DNA of 64,000 bases from contig NZ_JAOVZB010000003.1 in assembly GCF_025716875.1 (NCBI RefSeq), positions 1 through 64,000 on the forward strand. The letters run 5' to 3'. The position numbers and the translations under genes were made by a program. How positions within the stretch are numbered: position 1 is the first letter of the stretch; each line of letters starts with the position of its first letter. Shown here piece by piece: positions 969 through 62,217 of the stretch. The DNA comes from Marinomonas sargassi. GTDB lineage: Bacteria; Pseudomonadota; Gammaproteobacteria; Pseudomonadales; Marinomonadaceae. The notes beneath the pieces were generated by a model. That model did not search any database, was not told the DNA's origin, and saw only the letters and a program-made list of their open reading frames with translations.

Positions 969-2546
969 TTAATGTAATTCTGATAGTGTTTGAGGGTTAT
1001 CTTTTAACCACTTTAATAGCTGGATTGATGGTAAAGCTCTACTAAAGAAATATCCTTGTGCGCTTTCAACGCCAAGCCTATTTATGTGTTCTAATTGCTT
1101 TTTATGCTCTACCCCCTCTGCAACTACATCCATCTTTAGTTCTCTTGCCAATGTAATTATTGATGTAAAAATTTTAGGTGTGAAGCTGTCTTCATAAAGG
1201 CTATCCATAAATGTTTTGTCTATTTTTAGTGTGTCGAAGGGGAAGCTTCGTAAAAAGTCTAAGCCTGAGTAGCCAGTTCCAAAGTCGTCGATAGATAAAT
1301 TGATATCTAAGTTTTTAATGGCTTTAAATGTATTAATTGCGAGAGGAAGTTCTTTACTTGATAGAGAGTGGCTCTCAGTGATTTCTAAAGTAAGTTGTCC
1401 TTGTAGCTTTGGGTAATGTTCTAGCATATTTTCTAAAGAGTAAATAAACCCCTTGTCTAGCAATGTTGACCTGTCAATATTTATTGCTGTACGAATATTG
1501 TTTAATGAGAGTGAGTTATTTGTATAAAACTCTCCTACTTTTCTAAAGACTAGCCATGTTAGTTCATTTAGTAATCCTAATCGCCTTGCCGTATCTACTA
1601 TGAATTGTGGAGAGACTTGATCATGGTAGGGGGATTGCCAGCGGATGAGCGCTTCTAAACTGCTAGTGCGATTTTCTTTTAATGAATAAATAGGTTGATA
1701 GTAGACATCGATAGAGCCCCTCTTAATTGCTTCGCGAATGCAATAGGTTAAAGAATGCCGATAGCCTGTAATAGCAAATTGTATAGAGAGTGACAGAAAG
1801 GTAAAAATAAGCCAAAGAATGAAGGAGAAGGGTATCAAGCTTTTTATATGCTCCCAATATAGGCTTGATGGTAGAGAGATGATTAGATTCATATCCCAGT
1901 CTTCCATGGAGATGTTTGTTTCTCTAATCATTGTTACGTGTTCGGGTGGGTGGTTATCGGATATCGCTAGTTTACCTAAGGTGTATTCATAGGGGTGATT
2001 AGGGAGTAGCTCTATGACATCCGCAGCGAATATTTCTGCGGATACTAGACCGCTTATTCCGAGACCTTCCTTGCCCTGATAGAAAGCAATGAAGGTTGAG
2101 TGTCCGATATTGTTGTAGGTGCTACTAAGAGAAACGGTTTTTCTACTATCACTTTGTATTATGCGCTGAACAATGGTCGAAAATATATGGAGGTCTTTTT
2201 TACCAGCACTGGAGCAATATACAATAAAGTCATCGTCAAAAAGCCCAAATTCTTTGAAGTTAGGTGATCTAAGGGCTTCAATTCGCAATTTTTGTATCTT
2301 TTTTTCTGTGCATTGGTGATTTGACAGTTCGATTGAAGCAAGAGAGCTTTTTAACTCTACAAATATAGAGTTCATTTTTGTGTTTAATGTGTCTTCAATA
2401 AGATGTTTTTTGTTATCTAGATCATAGATTAGGTAGATGTATGTGCTTAATAATATTGCGACTATAGTAATAGGGAAGAAGATTACCAAGTTTAAAAATA
2501 AATGCTTTTTCCGTTTAGAAAATAGCTCTTTTATATTGGTTATCAT
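969..2546 (-). CDS. CSS-motif EAL-domain c-di-GMP phosphodiesterase, membrane-bound
   Basis: This 525-residue protein is predicted to hydrolyse cyclic di-GMP in response to a periplasmic signal. A transmembrane segment at about residues 17-40 and a second at about 238-260 enclose a periplasmic domain with C79 and the CSS motif at 111-113, as in the CSS-motif family where the two cysteines are redox-sensitive. The cytoplasmic EAL domain has EALIRW (298-303), NID, EITES, DDFGTGYS, KIDKTF and VVAEGVE, so the metal and substrate residues look intact. There is no GGDEF domain. The start is an ATG with a weak GGAAA-type ribosome site. It stands alone, with a terminator from the next gene upstream. 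Family assignment is firm; the signal sensed is unknown. Confidence 0.9.
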   Translation of the reverse strand: MITNIKELFSKRKKHLFLNLVIFFPITIVAILLSTYIYLIYDLDNKKHLIEDTLNTKMNSIFVELKSSLASIELSNHQCTEKKIQKLRIEALRSPNFKEFGLFDDDFIVYCSSAGKKDLHIFSTIVQRIIQSDSRKTVSLSSTYNNIGHSTFIAFYQGKEGLGISGLVSAEIFAADVIELLPNHPYEYTLGKLAISDNHPPEHVTMIRETNISMEDWDMNLIISLPSSLYWEHIKSLIPFSFILWLIFTFLSLSIQFAITGYRHSLTYCIREAIKRGSIDVYYQPIYSLKENRTSSLEALIRWQSPYHDQVSPQFIVDTARRLGLLNELTWLVFRKVGEFYTNNSLSLNNIRTAINIDRSTLLDKGFIYSLENMLEHYPKLQGQLTLEITESHSLSSKELPLAINTFKAIKNLDINLSIDDFGTGYSGLDFLRSFPFDTLKIDKTFMDSLYEDSFTPKIFTSIITLARELKMDVVAEGVEHKKQLEHINRLGVESAQGYFFSRALPSIQLLKWLKDNPQTLSELH

Positions 2547-2630
2547 TCAGGTTTCCGTATAGTCATTTAGAATATATAACAAATAACATTTTTGTATATG
2601 TATTACTATATGGCTTTTGTATTGGTAATA

Positions 2631-2658
2631 AAAAAAGGCCTTTTTGTAGGCCTTTTTT
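2631..2658 (-). terminator. rho-independent terminator after the GIY-YIG-like gene
   Basis: AAAAAAGGCCT pairs with AGGCCTTTTTTT around a six-base loop. The symmetrical A and T runs mean it could work both ways, but only a minus-strand gene ends here. Confidence 0.8.
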
Positions 2659-2681
2659 TATTTGATAGAGATTGATTATTA

Positions 2682-3380
2682 TTAACTCTTCTTTCTACGG
2701 AAAGCGGAATTTGCCGCTTTAGAAGTTAAATCTATTTTGGCCATAACCAAAGCCATTTCTTCTGCTTCAGCTTGCTGTTGGGACTTCAACTTCTGCTCAC
2801 GTTCTTTTTTGGCTGTTTTTTCTGCCTCTTTAAGCATTTTTTGGATACTAGCTTTACTTTGAGGGCGTTTAGCTACTGCTTTTTTTTCTGGAATCTTCTC
2901 TGTAGGCTCTTTAAGTCTTTCTTCAGAAATTAGCTCTGCGAAGAGAGATTTTATATCTGGTTTTGCTGTGCTTTTCTTTTCTGGTAGCGCAATAGTTTTT
3001 TTGGCAGTAGTTTTTCTTGCTTTTTTAGGTTGCTCGGCTGTTGATACGCCATTTGCATCAAATAGTGCTTTCTTACCAAAATTTAGATTTACAGATTTTT
3101 CTGCAGTTTGCGCTATTTTGTATCCGCGTAAACTTTCACCGTTATAAATCGACAGGTAATCGCTTTCTAATTCATATAACTCTTTTTTATCGCTCGTTTC
3201 GTAAAGTTCTTCTACAGTAAAGGCTGCTGTGCCGTGTTCTTTAATATCATTATAAAGAGGGAAGTCTAAACCAACCTCCGTTGCTTCTACATATTGTTCA
3301 AAACGTTGAAAACCACTATTGAATGATGTGCCAATGTAGTGTTTTCCCGTGATGTTATTTGTGATTTTAAAAACGATCAA
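2682..3380 (-). CDS. GIY-YIG-like nuclease-fold protein with a lysine-rich tail
   Basis: The first ~90 of 232 residues match the GIY-YIG endonuclease pattern: VFKITNNITGKHYIGTS at the start (the first GIY tyrosine is Phe, the YIG is intact), an arginine in QRFEQY, IKEHG, and a glutamate in YELESDYL followed by GYKIA. Residues ~110-232 are rich in Lys, Ala and Glu, are likely helical or disordered, and suit nucleic-acid binding. No defined DNA-binding domain is seen. The start is TTG with AAGAGG about nine bases upstream, and no ATG lies nearby. It could be a free-standing nuclease or a structural derivative. The role is unknown. Confidence 0.6.
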   Translation of the reverse strand: MIVFKITNNITGKHYIGTSFNSGFQRFEQYVEATEVGLDFPLYNDIKEHGTAAFTVEELYETSDKKELYELESDYLSIYNGESLRGYKIAQTAEKSVNLNFGKKALFDANGVSTAEQPKKARKTTAKKTIALPEKKSTAKPDIKSLFAELISEERLKEPTEKIPEKKAVAKRPQSKASIQKMLKEAEKTAKKEREQKLKSQQQAEAEEMALVMAKIDLTSKAANSAFRRKKS

Positions 3381-3472
3381 AAGTCGCTGCCTCTTAGAGT
3401 GTTTTTTAATAGCAAATAGCCCTCCATACCTAGGTTTAAAAAGCTAAGTTTGGAGGGTTATAAAAAGTTAAA

Positions 3473-4099
3473 TTAGTGTTTTATGACGATGTTAAGTCCG
3501 TCACGTACATTTAGATGCACGTTTTCAACGCGTTTGTCTTGAGCGATGAATTGGTTTAGTTGGTTAACAGCTATGTCGCTGTTTTCTTTTGGGTCAAGGA
3601 CTCGCCCTTGCCAAATAGAATTGTCGATGATGATTATACCACCTGAGGCTACAAGGGGTAATACTGCCTTGTAATAGTTTAGATAATTTCTTTTGTCCGC
3701 ATCGATGAAGACAAAGTCAAATTGTCCATCTAGGCCTTCTATTGTGTCTAGTGCAGGACCAAAAATAGCTTTGATTTTATGGCCGTACTCACTTCGATCA
3801 AAAAAAGACTGTGCGAATTCTATCGCTTTAGGGTTGGTTTCACAGCAGATTAGTTCACCATCCTTGTGCATGCCTTCTGCAATAGAAAGGGCGGAGTAGC
3901 CAGTAAACATACCAATTTCGAGTGCACGTTTTGGTTGTGCAACTTTGGCAAGTATTTTTAGCGTACGCCCAATGGTTTTTCCAGATAACTTGTTTGGATA
4001 GCCCATATCAGAATAGGTCTTTTCGATTAACTCAATTAAAAGATCAGGTTCTTGTTGAGTGGTATCGATACAGTAATTATCTAGTTCTTCAGAATGCAT
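3473..4099 (-). CDS. SAM-dependent O-methyltransferase (class I, family 3)
   Basis: At 208 residues it has the size and motifs of the small cation-dependent O-methyltransferases (caffeoyl-CoA / catechol type). The SAM-binding loop is LEIGMFTGYSALSIAEGM, the acidic strand end is CCETNP, the metal-binding DADKRNY lies in FVFIDADKRNY, and IIIDNSIWQGRV is the second metal region. It would transfer a methyl group from SAM to a hydroxyl of a small molecule in the cytoplasm. The substrate cannot be told from sequence. It is a single gene divergent from thrS. Confidence 0.85.
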   Translation of the reverse strand: MHSEELDNYCIDTTQQEPDLLIELIEKTYSDMGYPNKLSGKTIGRTLKILAKVAQPKRALEIGMFTGYSALSIAEGMHKDGELICCETNPKAIEFAQSFFDRSEYGHKIKAIFGPALDTIEGLDGQFDFVFIDADKRNYLNYYKAVLPLVASGGIIIIDNSIWQGRVLDPKENSDIAVNQLNQFIAQDKRVENVHLNVRDGLNIVIKH

Positions 4100-18030: not shown

Positions 18031-19089
18031 TTAATCACCGTCTCTACTATTAAAGCCAATTTGAAAGCCAAGATTAGTCACTAAATTTGTTAGGTAAGAC
18101 TGACTAAGAGAAATAGATTTTACCAGTGGGGTTGCCATGGTTACTTTTTCATTTTGCTCTTGGGTAGGTGCAAAAAAGTCACTTGGTAGCTGTAGGGCTA
18201 ACCTTTGGTTTTCAATGAGTTGAGCCTCAAGCTTTTTGGCAAGTTCTGGTTGCGACTTTATTGCTATATCGAATAGAGAAGGGGACCCAGAATGATAAAT
18301 TTTACGGTATGCTTTCAAGTTTTCATGGATGCTGTTTAGCGATAGGTCGCTCCGATAAAACTCAGCTAGCTTGAGGTTCTGGCGACCATGATAGCCAATT
18401 GGTGTTTCTAGTTTTGCATCTTTTACGGCGGACATATGTTCAATCCACTGTTGTAAAAATAATTCCATGGCTGCTTTTTCTTTATCAAATCCGCTGCCTT
18501 CTTCATCAAATACCCAGTCTTGAGCACTAGCGTTTTTCCATTGTAAGCTTACTTCGTTTGCACTTTCAGAATGGTGTTTAGTGACTCTCTTAAGTAAGTC
18601 ACAGTGCTTCTGAGAGTTTATTGGGTCAAAGTCTGGGTGGTACAGTAAGCTTTCTATTGCTGTTAGACCTCTTACTGCAATACTGGCCGAGGTCCAAAAT
18701 TTTGGTGCGTCCATTGCCTCAGTATCCGTTTGCGTTAGTGCTCTCAACTGCCTTTGAGTAATGCCTTTTTTATCAGGCCAGTATTCAAATGCGTAATATC
18801 GCATGAAATAGGTTACGGGGCCAAAATTTAACCATTGTATCTTCTGCCAATCCAGAGTGTTTTCTTTGAAGCTGTCCTTTGCTTGAGTAAGGGTTTGTGA
18901 GGATGGGGTGCTGCAAAAGGCATAGCTTGAATTCTGTAGTTTTTGAGCAGAGGCAGAGTAGTTGTTATACCCATTTTTAATGACGTGATTGACTATGCCA
19001 TTAAGCGGCTCCTGCCATTCATTAGCGGAAGCTTGTATAGGGCTTGCAATGCTCATTGCTAGAAATATGTATTTAGAAAGCTGTTTCAT
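18031..19089 (-). CDS. imelysin-family periplasmic protein (second copy)
   Basis: This 352-residue protein has a signal peptide (residues 1-22, ending IQASA) and the all-helical imelysin fold. The family motif GxHxxE is seen as GLTAIESLLY, so the glutamate stays but the histidine is threonine. Imelysins (peptidase M75 / EfeO-related) sit in iron-uptake loci. Its ATG shares one base with the upstream stop (TAATG), so it is translationally coupled to the di-haem gene. The loss of the His suggests a different metal site from its paralogue at 20540. Confidence 0.8.
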   Translation of the reverse strand: MKQLSKYIFLAMSIASPIQASANEWQEPLNGIVNHVIKNGYNNYSASAQKLQNSSYAFCSTPSSQTLTQAKDSFKENTLDWQKIQWLNFGPVTYFMRYYAFEYWPDKKGITQRQLRALTQTDTEAMDAPKFWTSASIAVRGLTAIESLLYHPDFDPINSQKHCDLLKRVTKHHSESANEVSLQWKNASAQDWVFDEEGSGFDKEKAAMELFLQQWIEHMSAVKDAKLETPIGYHGRQNLKLAEFYRSDLSLNSIHENLKAYRKIYHSGSPSLFDIAIKSQPELAKKLEAQLIENQRLALQLPSDFFAPTQEQNEKVTMATPLVKSISLSQSYLTNLVTNLGFQIGFNSRDGD

Positions 19090-20474
19090 TAAAGAGATTC
19101 CAGAAAATAGATAAGTTTGCTGCGTTGTGTTGATTCTAATTGTTTATAAAACTGTTGGCTTTGCTTCGCCTCGCCGCCATGCCATAAAATGGCTTCTTCA
19201 ATTGTACGAGCTCTACCGTCGTGTAAAAAGCCTTTTCGTCCAGATACTTTCTCGGATAAGCCTATTCCCCATAAAGGTGCAGTGCGCCACTCATTAGGAT
19301 GAGCAGAAAATATGGGAAAGCCACTTGCTAGGTCATCACCCATATCATGTAATAGCATATCTGTAAAAGGGTAAAAGATTCGGTTGTTTAATATTGGGTA
19401 AGTTGCATTACTGCCTGTTGTCATTTTCGGAATATGGCAAGCAGCACAGTTAGCTTGGTCGAAATACTTTTTACCTTCTAAAAAGTCTGTATCTCTTAAA
19501 TTTCGCATCTTGGGAGGGGATGACAAAGATACGAAAAGATTAACCAGCTTAACTTGCTCTTTATCCGCTTCAACATTACCTAAGTGTGTGCTGTTTCCGT
19601 TTAAACTACTAATGCAGGCAACCTGATGTTCTGTACAATCTCCAGAAGGCGATCTTTCTAAAGGAGTAGATAAGCCTAAGTCGATATTAAATGCTTGTTG
19701 GTTTTGAACATTAACAGAAGTCGCTGTCGCTTTATAACCAAAACGACCAATCGATTTAGTGCCATGTTTGTTAGTTACGACCCAGTTTACTCGGCCGCTA
19801 ATGCCGTCTTTATTGGAGTCTTCAGGGTCGGCATTTTTAAGAATGACATCATCTGGAATATTATCTAATAATCCCATGCCCACTAGAGGAGGTGACACGA
19901 GTAGTGCAATTTCTGTATTTTCTCCCAAGGGACCATAGTTAAGAGAGCTCCAAGATATTGACGGCTTGCGTAATTCGACAATAGTGCCATCCGCTAGCTT
20001 TTCTTTCTTTACAGTATAAGTTAGTTGGAAGTCGCCTTCAGAAGTAACTCCTTGAGAGTTGTGGCCTTGTAATTGTTTGCCATAAACTTCGTCACCCAAA
20101 TTGGGGTATATGGTTTGAGGGTTTAACTCTTGATTCGGTACCTTTTGGCCAAATCGAACCAAAAATGAGGGGATACTAGAGCCATAAATATTTGGTTCAG
20201 GTGCATGGCCACGACCGTTTAGAATATGGCAGTTATTACACGAGCGAGTATTAAAAAGAGGCCCTAGTCCATCGCTTGCCGTTGTAGAGGAGGGAGATGG
20301 CACCCAAAATTTCTGAAAGACAGATTCGCCAATTTTAAAATTAAGTTTTTGTTCAACAGGAAGGCCACTGATTGGCTGGGAGTAATCGTTGGCAAATATA
20401 GGGGATTGTAAACAAATATAGCTGGCAAGGATGCCAGCTATATTGAGTACAGGGTGTTTAAAACTTAATCTCAT
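19089..20474 (-). CDS. DUF1111-family di-haem oxidoreductase, periplasmic
   Basis: This 461-residue exported protein (signal peptide 1-29) has two c-type haem sites, CNNCH (79-83) and CAACH (343-347). The region with LLHDMGDDLASG and the C-terminal FLHDGRARTIEEAILWHGGEA are typical of the family annotated as thiol oxidoreductase or cytochrome c peroxidase-like. In this operon it may change the redox state of iron presented to the imelysins; that is inference. The gap to the upstream imelysin gene is 65 bases. Confidence 0.85.
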   Translation of the reverse strand: MRLSFKHPVLNIAGILASYICLQSPIFANDYSQPISGLPVEQKLNFKIGESVFQKFWVPSPSSTTASDGLGPLFNTRSCNNCHILNGRGHAPEPNIYGSSIPSFLVRFGQKVPNQELNPQTIYPNLGDEVYGKQLQGHNSQGVTSEGDFQLTYTVKKEKLADGTIVELRKPSISWSSLNYGPLGENTEIALLVSPPLVGMGLLDNIPDDVILKNADPEDSNKDGISGRVNWVVTNKHGTKSIGRFGYKATATSVNVQNQQAFNIDLGLSTPLERSPSGDCTEHQVACISSLNGNSTHLGNVEADKEQVKLVNLFVSLSSPPKMRNLRDTDFLEGKKYFDQANCAACHIPKMTTGSNATYPILNNRIFYPFTDMLLHDMGDDLASGFPIFSAHPNEWRTAPLWGIGLSEKVSGRKGFLHDGRARTIEEAILWHGGEAKQSQQFYKQLESTQRSKLIYFLESL

Positions 20475-20539
20475 AAATAGATAAATACCATTATTCGACT
20501 AAATATAACACCCTTATTGAGCTTGGTTAGCACTCTATT

Positions 20540-21832
20540 TTATTCAAATACGGCGCTTGGGTTGTCCAAACTATCAGAGCCTTCTAAAGCAATTCCTTGA
20601 AGATCTAATTCATGGATCACTTCTTCGATCACTCGAGTTTCGTTTACTAGTGAGTCAACGAAAGTTTGAACTAGTTGATTACCAACAGTGTTGTTAGTAG
20701 CAATAAGTACGTCAAAAGTTTGACCTTGTTCAGCAGCATCAACCATTGCTTGAGCAGCAGCTTCAGTTAGTTCAAGCTTAGCTTTCATTTCAACATCAAG
20801 TTTAGCATCTTGTTGAGATACTAGTTTAGATAGAGAAGGGCCTTTAACCCAGCTACCGTCAACGCGCTTATATTCACCTAGGTAAACATTTTTGATGCCT
20901 TGAGCGTCATGGTAGTGAGACCAATGAGTGTTATCTGAGAAACAGTCATGTTCTTCTTCTGGGTCATGTAGCATTAGACCAAGTTTTGTTCTTTCGCCGC
21001 CAAGCTCACCGTAAGCTAAGCTACCCATGCCTGTAAGCATAGTTGATAAGCCTTCTTCAGCAGACTGGTCAGTTAATGCGACGCGTGCTTCACCACCTTT
21101 TTTCCAGTTATTTGCCATTTCTTCAAGGTCTGAAATAAGAAGGTCAGTTGCTGCCACTAGATAGTCACGACGACGATCACAGTTTCCATTAGTACAGTTG
21201 CTTAGATCAAAATCTGTAGCTGGACGTTCGCCTGCACCAGGGTTTGTACCGTTTAGATCTTGTCCCCAAAGTAAAAACTCAATCGCGTGGTAACCACTTG
21301 CAACGTTTGCTTCTACACCGTCTGCTTCCTGTAAAGACTCTGCAATTAACTCTGGAGTTATATTTGTAGCGTCAACTTTTTCGCCGCCGATCATTAGAGT
21401 TTTAGAGGCGATAACATTGGCTGTGTAAAGAGGGTTAAGATCAGACTCAGTACCGTAGCTGTCTTTTGCTACGTAATCGATTAAACCTTCATCTAATGGC
21501 CAAGCATTTACTTTGCCTTCCCAGTCATCAACGATGGCATTACCAAAACGATATACTTCACTTTGTTGGTAAGGAGCGCGAGCAGCGACCCAAGAGGCAC
21601 GGGCTGCTTCAAGATTGGCTTCTGTTGGTGCTGCTAAAAATGTATTGATAGTTGAGCGCAATTCTTTTGCTGTCACTAATGAGTCTGTGTAAACAGCTTC
21701 TGCGATATCTGCGTAGTGAGATACAACTGCATCAGCAGTCACTGTTGATTCACTTTTAACGCTAGCAGGACCACATGCAGTAAGTGCTGCACCTGCAACA
21801 CAAATTGCAATAGGGGTTAACAATCGTTTCAT
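20540..21832 (-). CDS. imelysin-family lipoprotein (peptidase M75)
   Basis: This 430-residue protein has a lipoprotein signal with lipobox LTAC (Cys20), so it is anchored in a membrane facing the periplasm. The family motif GxHxxE is intact as GYHAIEFLLWGQD (G180, H182, E185). A cysteine pair, NCTNGNCDRRRDYL, is also present. Imelysins were named for insulin-cleaving activity, but the wider family is tied to iron uptake. It is the first gene of a four-gene operon. GGAG precedes the ATG by six bases, and a sigma70 promoter overlapping a Fur-like box lies about 60-90 bases upstream. Confidence 0.87.
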   Translation of the reverse strand: MKRLLTPIAICVAGAALTACGPASVKSESTVTADAVVSHYADIAEAVYTDSLVTAKELRSTINTFLAAPTEANLEAARASWVAARAPYQQSEVYRFGNAIVDDWEGKVNAWPLDEGLIDYVAKDSYGTESDLNPLYTANVIASKTLMIGGEKVDATNITPELIAESLQEADGVEANVASGYHAIEFLLWGQDLNGTNPGAGERPATDFDLSNCTNGNCDRRRDYLVAATDLLISDLEEMANNWKKGGEARVALTDQSAEEGLSTMLTGMGSLAYGELGGERTKLGLMLHDPEEEHDCFSDNTHWSHYHDAQGIKNVYLGEYKRVDGSWVKGPSLSKLVSQQDAKLDVEMKAKLELTEAAAQAMVDAAEQGQTFDVLIATNNTVGNQLVQTFVDSLVNETRVIEEVIHELDLQGIALEGSDSLDNPSAVFE

Positions 21833-33190: not shown

Positions 33191-34396
<1,206 letters not shown>

Positions 34397-34420
34397 CAGA
34401 ATTCTTTTATTAATGAGTTA

Positions 34421-34455
34421 AGCATGGTTACCATGATGTTAGTGGTAACCATGCT
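34421..34455. terminator. perfect 13-bp inverted repeat between fadA and the deaminase gene
   Basis: AGCATGGTTACCA (34421-34433) and TGGTAACCATGCT (34443-34455) form a perfect stem with a nine-base loop. The genes on both sides converge on it. The T tract is poor on either side, so it may be a weak terminator, an mRNA end stabiliser or a protein site. Confidence 0.55.
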
Positions 34456-34489
34456 CTATATTTAGTAAAAAATTTCATTCTAATGATTG

Positions 34490-35740
34490 TTAGAGCGTGC
34501 TGATCCAAGGCTTGCTGATTACCTGAGCCGGTTTCCGTTCCACAATGATTTCACCGCGACGAACGGATAAAAGCACTTCACCTTGTTTGCGCAATACACT
34601 GTAATCATCAAAGCCTTCTAATAGTATAAAGTTGGCTGGGTGGCCGACTTTAATACCATAGTTGTTTAAACATAGAGCTTTTGCACTGTTGTCTGTGATC
34701 ATATCAAGGGCACTGGCGTAATCTTTGTAGCCCATCATTTGGCAGATATGCATAGCGAAATCTAATGTGCGTAATAGCTTTCCATTGCCTAATGAATACC
34801 AAGGATCAAAAATCGAGTCTTGTCCTAGACATACATTAATATCTGCTTCACGAAGCTCCTTTACACGCGTCACCCCACGTCGTTTTGGATAGCTATCAAA
34901 TCGTCCTTGAAGGTGAATGCTTTCTGTTGGGCAGGAAATGAAATTAATCCCAGAATTCTTTAGTAAACGAAAAAGCTTCGAACAGTACGCGTTATCGTAG
35001 GAATGCATGGCAGTGGTATGGCTGGCGGTAACTTTTTCGCCCATGTCGTGGAATAGTGCTTCACAGGCAAGAAACTCAAGGAAACGAGAGTTTGGGTCGT
35101 CAATCTCATCACAATGAACGTCAATTAAACGATCGTATTTTTTTGCCAGTTCTATTATTTTTTTAACGGATTGTTCGCCCAGCTCTCTAGTGTATTCAAA
35201 ATGAGGAATGCCACCGACAACATCTGCACCTATTTCAAGAGCTTCCTCCATTAGTTTTAAGCCATTTGGGTAAGAGAGCATGCCGTCTTGAGGAAAAGCG
35301 ACAACTTGTAAATCAATCTTATCCTTTAACTCATCTCTTAATGCACATAGGGTGCGAACACCGATTAAGGTGGGGTCTGTTGTATCTGTATGGGTACGAA
35401 TTGCCTGTACACCGTTTTGAACCAATAGCTCGATTGTTGAGAGGGCCCGTTGTCGAATATCCGCCTCGTTAAGCATAGACTTCCTTTGGCTCCAGCGCTC
35501 AATTCCCTCAAAAAGTGTACCGCTGTTATTCCATTCTGGTTCACCAGCGGTTAATGCCGCATCAAGATGAATGTGTGGCTCAACAAATGGGGCGCATAGA
35601 AGGTTTTCATTGGCATCGAATTCCGAAGAGTGAGCAGACAGGCGTTCCGTTTGTTCTTCAATACTAACAAAGCTGCCATTTTCGATATGTACTGTAAAAA
35701 GTTCTGCTTGATGACGTAAACGAGCATTAATAACTTTCAT
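34490..35740 (-). CDS. CodA-family deaminase, predicted 5-methylcytosine/cytosine deaminase
   Basis: This amidohydrolase of 416 residues aligns along its length with E. coli cytosine deaminase: metal ligands in EPHIHLD (H56, H58), DVHCDEIDD, TASHTTAMHSY, and the catalytic-metal aspartate in GQDSIFDPWY (D308). E. coli has GHDDVFDPWY; the second Asp (D314), which excludes 5-methylcytosine, is Ser309 here. Bacterial CodA homologues lacking this Asp were shown to deaminate 5-methylcytosine to thymine, so that activity is predicted. ATG at 35740 with GAGG upstream is preferred over a TTG at 35752. No codB-type permease is adjacent. Confidence 0.85.
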   Translation of the reverse strand: MKVINARLRHQAELFTVHIENGSFVSIEEQTERLSAHSSEFDANENLLCAPFVEPHIHLDAALTAGEPEWNNSGTLFEGIERWSQRKSMLNEADIRQRALSTIELLVQNGVQAIRTHTDTTDPTLIGVRTLCALRDELKDKIDLQVVAFPQDGMLSYPNGLKLMEEALEIGADVVGGIPHFEYTRELGEQSVKKIIELAKKYDRLIDVHCDEIDDPNSRFLEFLACEALFHDMGEKVTASHTTAMHSYDNAYCSKLFRLLKNSGINFISCPTESIHLQGRFDSYPKRRGVTRVKELREADINVCLGQDSIFDPWYSLGNGKLLRTLDFAMHICQMMGYKDYASALDMITDNSAKALCLNNYGIKVGHPANFILLEGFDDYSVLRKQGEVLLSVRRGEIIVERKPAQVISKPWISTL

Positions 35741-35953
35741 AAGAAACCTCAAATTTTTTGGTGGTCCAACCTAATGGCTAGCTCTTTAGTCTTGTGATAA
35801 CGGAATACTACTCACTAGATTAATGTACTGTTTTGTCATTTATTAGTTGAAAGGGCTTAGGTGTTAAGAGTGCTTCAATTGCACCAATCAATAAATTGCA
35901 GTTATTAATAAGAGAGAGTTTAAGCTATCACAATGTTAGTTTTTATTTATTAG

Positions 35954-38221
<2,268 letters not shown>

Positions 38222-58701: not shown

Positions 58702-61332
58702 ATGGCGAGTGTTATTGCTGAATATCAAAGGTTTTTGGAGGTGTTAGCTGTAAGACCTATAGATAACGACATTCGTCGAATGGCAAACCTAATATATTTT
58801 AATCTTCCACACTTGGCACAGGTGGGTACTGCTCGCAGAGCTCGATCATCACGATTAGTACCGATTGCAATAAACCAACTAGTAGAAACTTCTCCTGAGT
58901 TACCTGAATTTAATAATATTAATGTTGATGGACATAATATTGGTCGCCTGCATCAATTAAGTGTGGGGCCGTTTAGAGGGTTTACAAATCAGGAGATATT
59001 TGACTTAAGCAATCCAATTACTCTTGTCTATGGTGCCAACGGTACAGGGAAGAGTAGTTTTTGTGAGGCTCTAGAAACGGCGTTGTTAGGCTCTATAAGT
59101 GAAGCCCAAGTAAAGCGGATCGATCACAACACTTACTGTAGAAATGCAAGGCTAGGACAATATGTTCAACCTGTTATATCAACAGTAGATGGAAATTATC
59201 CTCCGGTTAATCTAGAGCCAAATGAAGAAAAGTATAGGTTCTGCTTTATAGAAAAAAACAGATTGGATGATTTTGCTCGAATTGCTTCAAGAACTCCAAG
59301 CGATCAAAGGCAATTAATTGCTACGCTTTTTGGTATTGACCAATTTTCGGACTTTGTAAGAGGATTTAACCCTTCTCTTGATGAAAGCTTAAACCTTACT
59401 GGACAATATGCACAAGAGCTTTCAACAAGGCGGCAGTCATTGGCTAGCGCAGAAAAAATCATTCAGGAATTTCCACAGCGCCTTTTAAAAATTATTATAA
59501 ATGAAGGCCAAATTGCAGAAAGAGTTCAGCCAGAAAGCAGCTATGAAGCAGTTAATCTATGGTTAGTTGGAAGTAAGGATCAGCAAGGTCGCCTTCCATA
59601 TGTACAATCTCTTCTTGATGCTCCTTCGCCAACTGTTTACGACTTAACTGCAGAACAGCTTACATCAGCTTTTAATCAAGTATTCGCTATCAATAGTACA
59701 TTGCAAGGCATAAACACTGAATTGACTCGTCGTGCAGGTGAAGTTTCATATAAAAAACTATATGAGTCAGTGCTCCAGCTATCTTCTTTAAACCCGCATA
59801 ACTGCCCAGCATGTGGCACTAACCTTCAGTCTGTAGCTAAAAACCCATATGAGGCTGCAACTACTGGTCTTGAACAACTTGGTGAACTAGCTGGTTTGCA
59901 ACATCAAGCGAAAGAGCAAAGTGAGGCATTGAATGAGTCGATGCGAAACTTACATCAACTGATGGTTAATACAATCAATGCGGCAGCTTTAGTTTGTCCT
60001 CAATTGCTCGCAGAGAACACACTACCAGTTTTGCCTCCGACATCAACTGGTCAATGGCTACAGGTGTGGGTTAATGATAATAATAGTTCTTGGAATGTGT
60101 TGCTAAATCTATGCACACATATTGAAAAGTCAGATTCTGAATCTCGCGAAGCTCTAGCTCAACGCCAACAGCTGGCTGAAGAAAGAACTAGACTTGATGG
60201 ATATCGCATCGAGATAGAGAGGGCAAAATTAATACGGCAAACTGCAGAAAGTGAACTCGCAGAAGCAAGAGCAACAGTCGCCAATTTTGATGAGTCTAAT
60301 AGAGAGCTAATTGAATTGGTAGCTTCTGAGGAGAACGTAGTCGAATTTCATAACAGAGTTAAAAGATCATATGATGGTTTTTTACAAGAGATCCAATCAT
60401 ATCTACGCAATCTACCATCTCAATTGCTACAAGGTTTGGGGCAAAGGGCTCGCGATCTATACAATTCATTCAATCGTGATGACTTACCAGTAGACTTATT
60501 ACAAAGCCTTTGGTTACCAATTGCTGAAAATGGGAAAATTGAACTTGAGTTTCAGGAGCAATCAGGGGTCCGTTATGACGCATTAACACTGCTCAGTGAA
60601 GGACACATTAAGTGTTTGGGGTTAGCAATATTACTTGCAAAGAATATTGAGGAAGGTTGTCCTCTCGTTGTTTTTGATGACGTAGTAAATGCTATTGATG
60701 ATGATCATAGAAATGGGATCTGGAGAACATTCTTCGAAGATGGTTTGCTGGATGAAAAGCAGGTCATCTTAACATCTCACGCTGAGGAATTTCTTCATAG
60801 AATCCAACAAGAGCTAGGTGCGGCAAGGGCAAGTGATATATCACTGTATAAATTTTTGCCGCATCAAGGGGAGCATCACTTACGTGTCGACACCAATCCT
60901 CCTTCAAAGAATTATGTTCTTAAAGCTCAGCAAGCATTTGTTAATGATGATAAACGAGAAGCTCTTTATTACTCTCGAGCAGCAATAGAAAGCTTAACGG
61001 ACCGACTATGGACTTGGATGGGACGGCGCGGAGATGGACGTATTGAACTTAAGCTTAGTGGGCCCCGATCACAGTGGGAGTTGAATAATAAGTGCAATAA
61101 AATTCGTTCTTCTTTGAGAAGGAGCCAGATCTCGTCTAATGCAATTACTTCCTTGCTTGGAGCTCTAGATGCATTGTTAGGAGTAGCTGGAGGCTCAATA
61201 GAATGGGGATACCTAAATAGTGGAACTCATGACTCTCAGCGAGATGGCGAATTCGACCGAGCGGCTGTTGAAACTATTACCCAAGCTGTGAGTGCTTTAG
61301 ATCAAGCCTTAACGGAGCTTAAAAATGGGTGA
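58702..61332 (+). CDS. Rad50-like ABC ATPase with a C-terminal helical domain, candidate defence protein
   Basis: The 876 residues show: N-terminal ~85 residues (unknown), Walker A GANGTGKSS (111-119), a long helical region with a zinc-hook-like CPAC (368-371), ABC signature LLSEGH (630-635), Walker B LVVFDDVVNAID (655-666), H-loop TSHAEE (691-696), then a ~125-residue helical tail (750-876) with SRAAIESLTDRLW and NSGTHDSQRDGEFD. The layout resembles RloC/PrrC-type and other stand-alone Rad50-like anti-phage ATPases; the tail has a HEPN-like look but is not proven. AAGGA lies before the ATG. It is not related to its chromosomal neighbours and is framed by attC-like sites. Confidence 0.7.
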   Translation: MASVIAEYQRFLEVLAVRPIDNDIRRMANLIYFNLPHLAQVGTARRARSSRLVPIAINQLVETSPELPEFNNINVDGHNIGRLHQLSVGPFRGFTNQEIFDLSNPITLVYGANGTGKSSFCEALETALLGSISEAQVKRIDHNTYCRNARLGQYVQPVISTVDGNYPPVNLEPNEEKYRFCFIEKNRLDDFARIASRTPSDQRQLIATLFGIDQFSDFVRGFNPSLDESLNLTGQYAQELSTRRQSLASAEKIIQEFPQRLLKIIINEGQIAERVQPESSYEAVNLWLVGSKDQQGRLPYVQSLLDAPSPTVYDLTAEQLTSAFNQVFAINSTLQGINTELTRRAGEVSYKKLYESVLQLSSLNPHNCPACGTNLQSVAKNPYEAATTGLEQLGELAGLQHQAKEQSEALNESMRNLHQLMVNTINAAALVCPQLLAENTLPVLPPTSTGQWLQVWVNDNNSSWNVLLNLCTHIEKSDSESREALAQRQQLAEERTRLDGYRIEIERAKLIRQTAESELAEARATVANFDESNRELIELVASEENVVEFHNRVKRSYDGFLQEIQSYLRNLPSQLLQGLGQRARDLYNSFNRDDLPVDLLQSLWLPIAENGKIELEFQEQSGVRYDALTLLSEGHIKCLGLAILLAKNIEEGCPLVVFDDVVNAIDDDHRNGIWRTFFEDGLLDEKQVILTSHAEEFLHRIQQELGAARASDISLYKFLPHQGEHHLRVDTNPPSKNYVLKAQQAFVNDDKREALYYSRAAIESLTDRLWTWMGRRGDGRIELKLSGPRSQWELNNKCNKIRSSLRRSQISSNAITSLLGALDALLGVAGGSIEWGYLNSGTHDSQRDGEFDRAAVETITQAVSALDQALTELKNG

Positions 61333-61425: not shown

Positions 61426-62217
61426 GTGGAAGTAAGAAAAGATTTATTAGAAGTTGAAGGGTTATTCTACAGGCTACTTGCTATTGGAGAGTCATTTTCA
61501 AAAAATATTGAATACTGGGAGCATCTGAAGAATAAAGAGGATTTTAGATATATTTGCCGAATCCCATTTAATGTTCGCCATTTAGTTGAAGCAGTTTATG
61601 CAGATGGGCGTGATATGGCTCAGTACATGGCATGGACAATTGGTGATGCAAATGAAAATTATGCAGATTTTCCAACATTAACATCAATTATAGAGAAATT
61701 TGATGGTGGGTTGGTCTATGGTGCTTATGATTCAAGTGTACCTGAAAAAGCACAGGAAACCTGTACTGAATTTAACGAAAATATATGGTCTGTAAATCAG
61801 ATGATTGATTTATTTCGGAAGCAAGAGAATTCACTTTTAGCAGTGAAAGTTACACTTAAAATATTGAAGGAAACAGACCTATATAAAAAAGAAAATGGTA
61901 TTGAAATAATGACGAAAACGAATTCAACAATTAATGTTTCAGACGTAACTGGATCTGCAATTAACATAAACTCGACTGGCGCAAGCGTTACTTCAACATA
62001 TAATGAACCAAAAATTTTTTCTAAAATGCTTGAAGCAATTAAAGCAAGCGAACTGGAAAAAGAAGAAATTGATTTGCTATCTGACAACGTGAAAATGCTC
62101 GCAACTAGTTATGAGACTGGAACATTTGGTGATTCATATAAAGACTTTATGCAAAATGTATCTGCACATATAACAGTTCTTTCTCCATTTTTAGCTGGAA
62201 TAGCAGCGTTGCTGTAG
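61426..62217 (+). CDS. unknown cytoplasmic protein of the second candidate cassette
   Basis: The 263-residue protein begins at GTG with AGGA about eight bases upstream. Residues 1-150 are mainly helical with no family I recognise. Residues 163-192 are a Ser/Thr/Asn-rich beta-type linker (INVSDVTGSAININSTG), like linkers that join domains in AbiTii-type and effector-associated proteins. The tail is helical and ends in hydrophobic SPFLAGIAALL. It is AT-rich compared with the core genes. It follows the ATPase in the same direction but probably as a separate cassette. Confidence 0.55.
   Translation: MEVRKDLLEVEGLFYRLLAIGESFSKNIEYWEHLKNKEDFRYICRIPFNVRHLVEAVYADGRDMAQYMAWTIGDANENYADFPTLTSIIEKFDGGLVYGAYDSSVPEKAQETCTEFNENIWSVNQMIDLFRKQENSLLAVKVTLKILKETDLYKKENGIEIMTKTNSTINVSDVTGSAININSTGASVTSTYNEPKIFSKMLEAIKASELEKEEIDLLSDNVKMLATSYETGTFGDSYKDFMQNVSAHITVLSPFLAGIAALL

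Follow-up and report, generated by a model that had tools for sequence, protein, structure and literature searches.

The closest described relative of the enzyme considered here is Kpn00632, the 5-methylcytosine deaminase of Klebsiella pneumoniae (Hitchcock et al. 2014, as cited in PMC6186785). The passage of PMC6186785 that deals with it places a serine at the discriminating site (residue 315 in the numbering used there), and also reports that CodA gained activity on 5-methylcytosine when the discriminating aspartate (again numbered 315) was changed to alanine, in agreement with what the original prediction had said of CodA homologues lacking this residue. E. coli CodA (1k6w and others) is the second enzyme to be compared. 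AtzC, N-isopropylammelide isopropylaminohydrolase (2qt3, 4cqb; about 124 bits), belongs to the same superfamily but is far more distant from the protein described below than CodA or Kpn00632.

The DNA analysed (the window) is a stretch of 64,000 nucleotides from Marinomonas sargassi, in a genome of 3.14 Mb that is 99.99% complete. A CodA-type amidohydrolase gene is found at 34490-35740 on the minus strand, encoding 416 aa from an ATG at 35740. The mechanical open reading frame covers 34490-35752 (minus strand) and starts with a TTG at 35752; since the ATG is preceded by 'gagg', it is the likelier start, and the coordinates originally given for the gene, 34490-35740, are right. The gene and its surroundings comprise the following features:

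33218-34396, plus strand: presumed fadI-like thiolase, convergent neighbour, outside deaminase function (context marker)
34490-35740, minus strand: predicted 5-methylcytosine (probably also cytosine) deaminase; full-length open reading frame, NF006685, best PDB match 4r7w (E 2e-167)
34814-34822, minus strand: Gln-Asp-Ser codons at CodA positions 312-314, from the reading frame; Asp313 kept, Asp314 replaced by Ser
35741-36025, no strand: divergent deaminase-katG intergenic region; on its katG side, as far as about 35922, it matches the stretch between katG and permease in a relative, L023
36026-38221, plus strand: presumed katG (catalase-peroxidase), conserved divergent neighbour, outside deaminase function (context marker)

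The names given to the genes at 36026-38221 and 33218-34396 are our assumption, based on the sequence. The coordinates of the three codons were computed by hand from the frame; the residues are 311-313 when counted from the TTG at 35752, and CodA numbering is the window residue, so counted, plus 1. Elsewhere in the window, 58702-61332 (plus strand) encodes an SMC/AAA ATPase of 876 aa that weakly resembles several defence ATPases (LmuB and mad3 models), and is followed at 61426-62217 (plus strand) by the gene for a 263-aa protein with no Pfam or PADLOC match; the two are possibly an undescribed defence pair. At 19089-21832 (minus strand) a di-haem oxidoreductase (PF06537) adjoins an imelysin-family protein (PF09375) in an iron-uptake-like cluster.

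The active-site segment of the window protein reads CLGQDSIFDPWYSL, as compared to CFGHDDVFDPWYPL in CodA, in an alignment that has no gaps from residue 4 to residue 411. The alignments to CodA and to 4r7w are both ungapped up to the serine site, and the serine therefore cannot shift out of position 314, a displacement that the original prediction had foreseen as possible and that was not seen. In CodA numbering, His61, His63, Gln156, His214, Glu217, His246, Asp313 and Trp319 are kept and positions 312 and 314 are changed, to Gln and Ser. All of the metal ligands (His61, His63, His214 and Asp313) are present together with Glu217, His246 and Gln156. The gap-free alignment thus bears out the claim that Asp314 has given way to Ser in a CodA homologue that keeps its metal-binding Asp. 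The His to Gln change, put forward at the same time as a further difference, is present but is a trait of the group and not a special feature of this protein; and besides the two differences that were named, at 312 and 314, two more had been missed, Thr to Ala at position 66 and PLVN to PTES at 276-279. The changes at these two sites accompany Ser314 throughout both gammaproteobacterial groups of the tree described below.

A serine at position 314 would leave room for a 5-methyl group. In the proposed mechanism, a metal-bound hydroxide in the CodA-type active site would attack C4 of the free pyrimidine base, with release of ammonia; Ser in place of Asp314 would make space for the methyl group and so allow conversion of 5-methylcytosine to thymine, and cytosine (to uracil) and 5-fluorocytosine would probably be accepted too. 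An AlphaFold2 model of the protein (12-row alignment) had a mean pLDDT of 58, and less than 50 in the serine region; because of these low values it was left aside, and the specificity argument rests on the alignment at 62% identity.

As for kinship, the closest solved structures are 4r7w, 4r85 and 4r88 (560 bits, versus 493-504 bits for the CodA entries), whose molecule is called cytosine deaminase in the PDB listing and which we take to be Kpn00632. Kpn00632 is 61.7% identical to the window protein over 405 columns, and has in common with it the PTES and QDS motifs and the clade, while reading SIQDPWY where the window protein reads SIFDPWY; the comparison with a characterised 5-methylcytosine deaminase that had been suggested at the outset thus finds in it the nearest match. 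E. coli CodA, 53.4% identical over 408 columns, shares the metal ligands and the catalytic Asp, but has Thr66, PLVN at 276-279, His312 and Asp314 in place of Ala, PTES, Gln and Ser. Identity to named Marinomonas relatives reaches 89%. The protein also matches Pfam Amidohydro_3 and passes the NCBIfam model NF006685, 'cytosine deaminase', at 594.6 bits against a cut-off of 483, a model which for this protein does not separate the Asp314 and Ser314 groups.

The comparison covered the 87 loci, out of 90, that carry a homologue. In a tree of 80 distinct rows, built by a quick method with SH-aLRT only (no bootstrap) and with a long-branch warning that includes Kpn00632, the window protein and Kpn00632 fall into one group of 60 rows (SH-aLRT 99), all of which have Ser314; the window protein shares descent with Kpn00632 rather than with CodA, and has Ser where an E. 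coli-type CodA has Asp314. At positions 66, 276-279 and 312-314 this group reads A, PTES, QDS in 48 rows, A, PTES, EDS in seven and A, PTEN, QDS in five, whereas the E. coli CodA group reads T, PLVN, HDD throughout, with Asp314 in 11 of 11 rows; the remaining nine rows lie further away, with mixed signatures. Given this signature and clade, the predicted specificity for 5-methylcytosine is well supported.

Other replacements at the same site were also observed. Ser314 occurs with His312, and with PFDN instead of PTES, in two contigs of Bacillota/Clostridia MAGs (deaminases at L028:5983-7200 and L029:2964-4181, each adjoined by a permease match); here the discriminating Asp was replaced separately. 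Cys is found at 314 in CodA homologues of an Anaerolineae, a Paracoccaceae and a cyanobacterial MAG (L030, L031 and L034, reading QDC, SDC and HDC, respectively).

Within Marinomonas the gene is present in 37 of 48 genomes; one of the 11 genomes without it, retained in this count, is only 77% complete (G041). The best match has Ser314 in all 37 (30 loci and seven taken from the tree), so that this residue is not due to chance, and position 312 is Gln in 36 of them and Glu in one. In a sample of the phylum, 121 of 398 genomes had some match, and the best 30 of these 121, taken as loci, divide into 20 with Ser314 and 10 with Asp314.

In the relatives, a recurrent gene order was observed: katG (divergent), a permease, a PucR-type regulator and the deaminase. 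The permease matches NF008241, cytosine permease, at 595.9 bits, and the regulator PF07905/PF13556. Sorted by eye, the 37 Marinomonas genomes that carry the gene form three classes: in 16 the permease adjoins the deaminase (PucR is matched over its full length in eight of these, as fragments in one and not at all in seven); in eight, the window included, the deaminase stands alone beside katG; and in 13 it lies elsewhere without a permease. At L017:5703-5878, pieces of the PucR-type regulator gene remain in the interval from permease to deaminase, a stage of operon decay. On the rpoB tree, the presence or absence of the permease changes five times within the 24 genomes that have the katG locus. 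Outside Marinomonas, 17 loci of the phylum sample are of the Ser type, and 15 of them have a permease match beside the gene within a flank of only 1.5 kb. In Reinekea marinisedimentorum the genes around the operon code for PreA (715.6 bits), a PreT-like protein, a RutR-like regulator and an allantoate/hydantoin-type amidohydrolase, surroundings that point to reductive pyrimidine degradation. More generally, the neighbourhood of the relatives points to uptake and catabolism of free bases. In such an ancestral setting a CodB-like permease would import the base, the PucR-type regulator would control the genes, and the product would pass into pyrimidine degradation.

To either side of the permease and regulator, the window can still be matched to L023. 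Positions 36120-35922 match L023 3071-3273 (73.7% over 205 columns), and 35752-35676, at the start of the deaminase, match L023 6001-6077 (81.8%). L023 3274-6000, which holds the permease and the regulator, has no window counterpart beyond short chance-level matches, and the block from about 35922 to the deaminase start has no match to the L023 katG-permease intergenic region. Two matching blocks with the middle absent indicate that the permease and regulator genes were lost from the window locus, where the deaminase was retained and would now be transcribed from the upstream region that remains. In the genome as a whole there was no match over cut-off to the NCS1 permease family (PF02133); one NCS2 permease was found, and no permease lies beside the deaminase. 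No Rfam match at gathering score was obtained in 34380-36100; there was one terminator-like site (34421-34455), while promoter-like sites numbered 0 versus 4.6 expected in shuffles. By this comparison of loci, the deaminase has outlived the permease and regulator genes that relatives keep adjacent to it. Taken as a whole, we consider it very probable that the window gene is an orthologue of Kpn00632, a deaminase converting 5-methylcytosine to thymine, which was kept when its permease and regulator were deleted.

A serious alternative, to which we give somewhat less than an even chance, is that the enzyme is a broad cytosine deaminase that acts in nature mainly on cytosine, with 5-methylcytosine tolerated and the benefit lying in uracil salvage. 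The window deaminase is the sole CodA-type match in its own genome, and likewise no second close homologue occurs in any of the 20 genomes with a Ser-type enzyme that figure in the 30 best phylum loci (second matches, if any, score about 150 bits or lower); for this reason the enzyme may serve cytosine as much as 5-methylcytosine. The fit of the relatives' partner permease to a cytosine permease model, the name of the model that the protein itself passes, and the missing matches to three thymine-using enzymes (below) all lean the same way. Against this stand the four-site signature held in common with the described 5-methylcytosine deaminase and the clean split from the Asp314 enzymes. A broad deaminase is in any case compatible with activity on 5-methylcytosine, so that this alternative competes with the main reading over physiology and leaves the proposed chemistry as it is. 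The original designation as a probable 5-methylcytosine deaminase accordingly stands for the predicted chemistry, which signature and clade uphold; the natural substrate may be either 5-methylcytosine or cytosine.

The fate of the product was also considered. No match over cut-off was found in the window genome for dihydropyrimidinase (TIGR02033), PreA or thymidine phosphorylase (TIGR02643); thymine, if made, is without a visible route among these three enzymes. With these matches missing and the permease and regulator lost, the suggestion that the enzyme salvages bases from methylated DNA finds no support here. PMC11087268 describes P. aeruginosa as lacking enzymes to scavenge thymine, which is not evidence for the M. 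sargassi strain; among the papers searched, none joined cytosine deaminase, Pseudomonas, 5-methylcytosine, thymine and nitrogen source, and the one that brought Marinomonas together with cytosine deaminase deals, to judge from its title, with melanin in an acetic acid bacterium.

With respect to DNA methylation, the window genome carries two overlapping tandem C5 cytosine DNA methyltransferase genes (G000:C4, about 890898-893163; L002:1414-2550 and 2537-3679), which match PADLOC type II methyltransferase models. PF00145 occurs in 26 of the 48 Marinomonas genomes, namely in 24 of the 37 that carry the deaminase gene and in two of the 11 that lack it (Fisher p 0.013). An association between deaminase and C5 methyltransferase was nevertheless rejected, as five independent pairs on supported branches gave a median sign-test p of 0.5; PF02384, tried as a control family, was too common (47 of 48 genomes). 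An additional scenario, which we regard as unlikely, is that the deaminase, freed from base uptake and catabolism and with the operon promoter region moved adjacent to it, would now serve in housekeeping clearance of intracellular free 5-methylcytosine, arising for example when DNA that the two tandem enzymes have methylated is turned over.

The gene might instead be a decaying relic of the operon, without present function. The permease and regulator are indeed gone, and the window deaminase has a longer branch than that of L035 (0.18 versus 0.031), although the rpoB of the window genome is itself long-branched (0.13). However, the frame is intact, all of the listed active-site residues are kept, and in comparisons of the window gene with 12 relatives pN was 0.069-0.111 versus a saturated pS of 0.785-0.863. 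Among the six orphan copies, dN/dS was 0.018-0.045 in 14 of 15 pairs, the dS of the remaining pair being saturated. Purifying selection among the orphan copies argues for function after operon loss, part of the divergence predating the losses, and a relic is thus very unlikely. Also very unlikely is that the enzyme really acts on another pyrimidine-like base, for instance isocytosine or a cytosine with some other 5-substituent: isocytosine had been suggested earlier as an assay substrate and PMC12828455 describes amidohydrolases as promiscuous, but the isocytosine deaminases described in the passage of PMC6186785 fall on another branch, akin to the 8-oxoguanine deaminases, with Gly at the site.

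An orthologue of Kpn00632 that has lost its permease and regulator is therefore our preferred reading. Enzymes of this kind have been described since 2014, and the window protein adds a member. The Ser314 group is the usual CodA-type enzyme of Marinomonas, and the proteins that are automatically labelled 'cytosine deaminase' include a group with an active site that fits the 5-methylcytosine enzyme. The genus provides a natural series, from full operon through permease only to deaminase alone, in which the role of the enzyme without its uptake genes may be asked.
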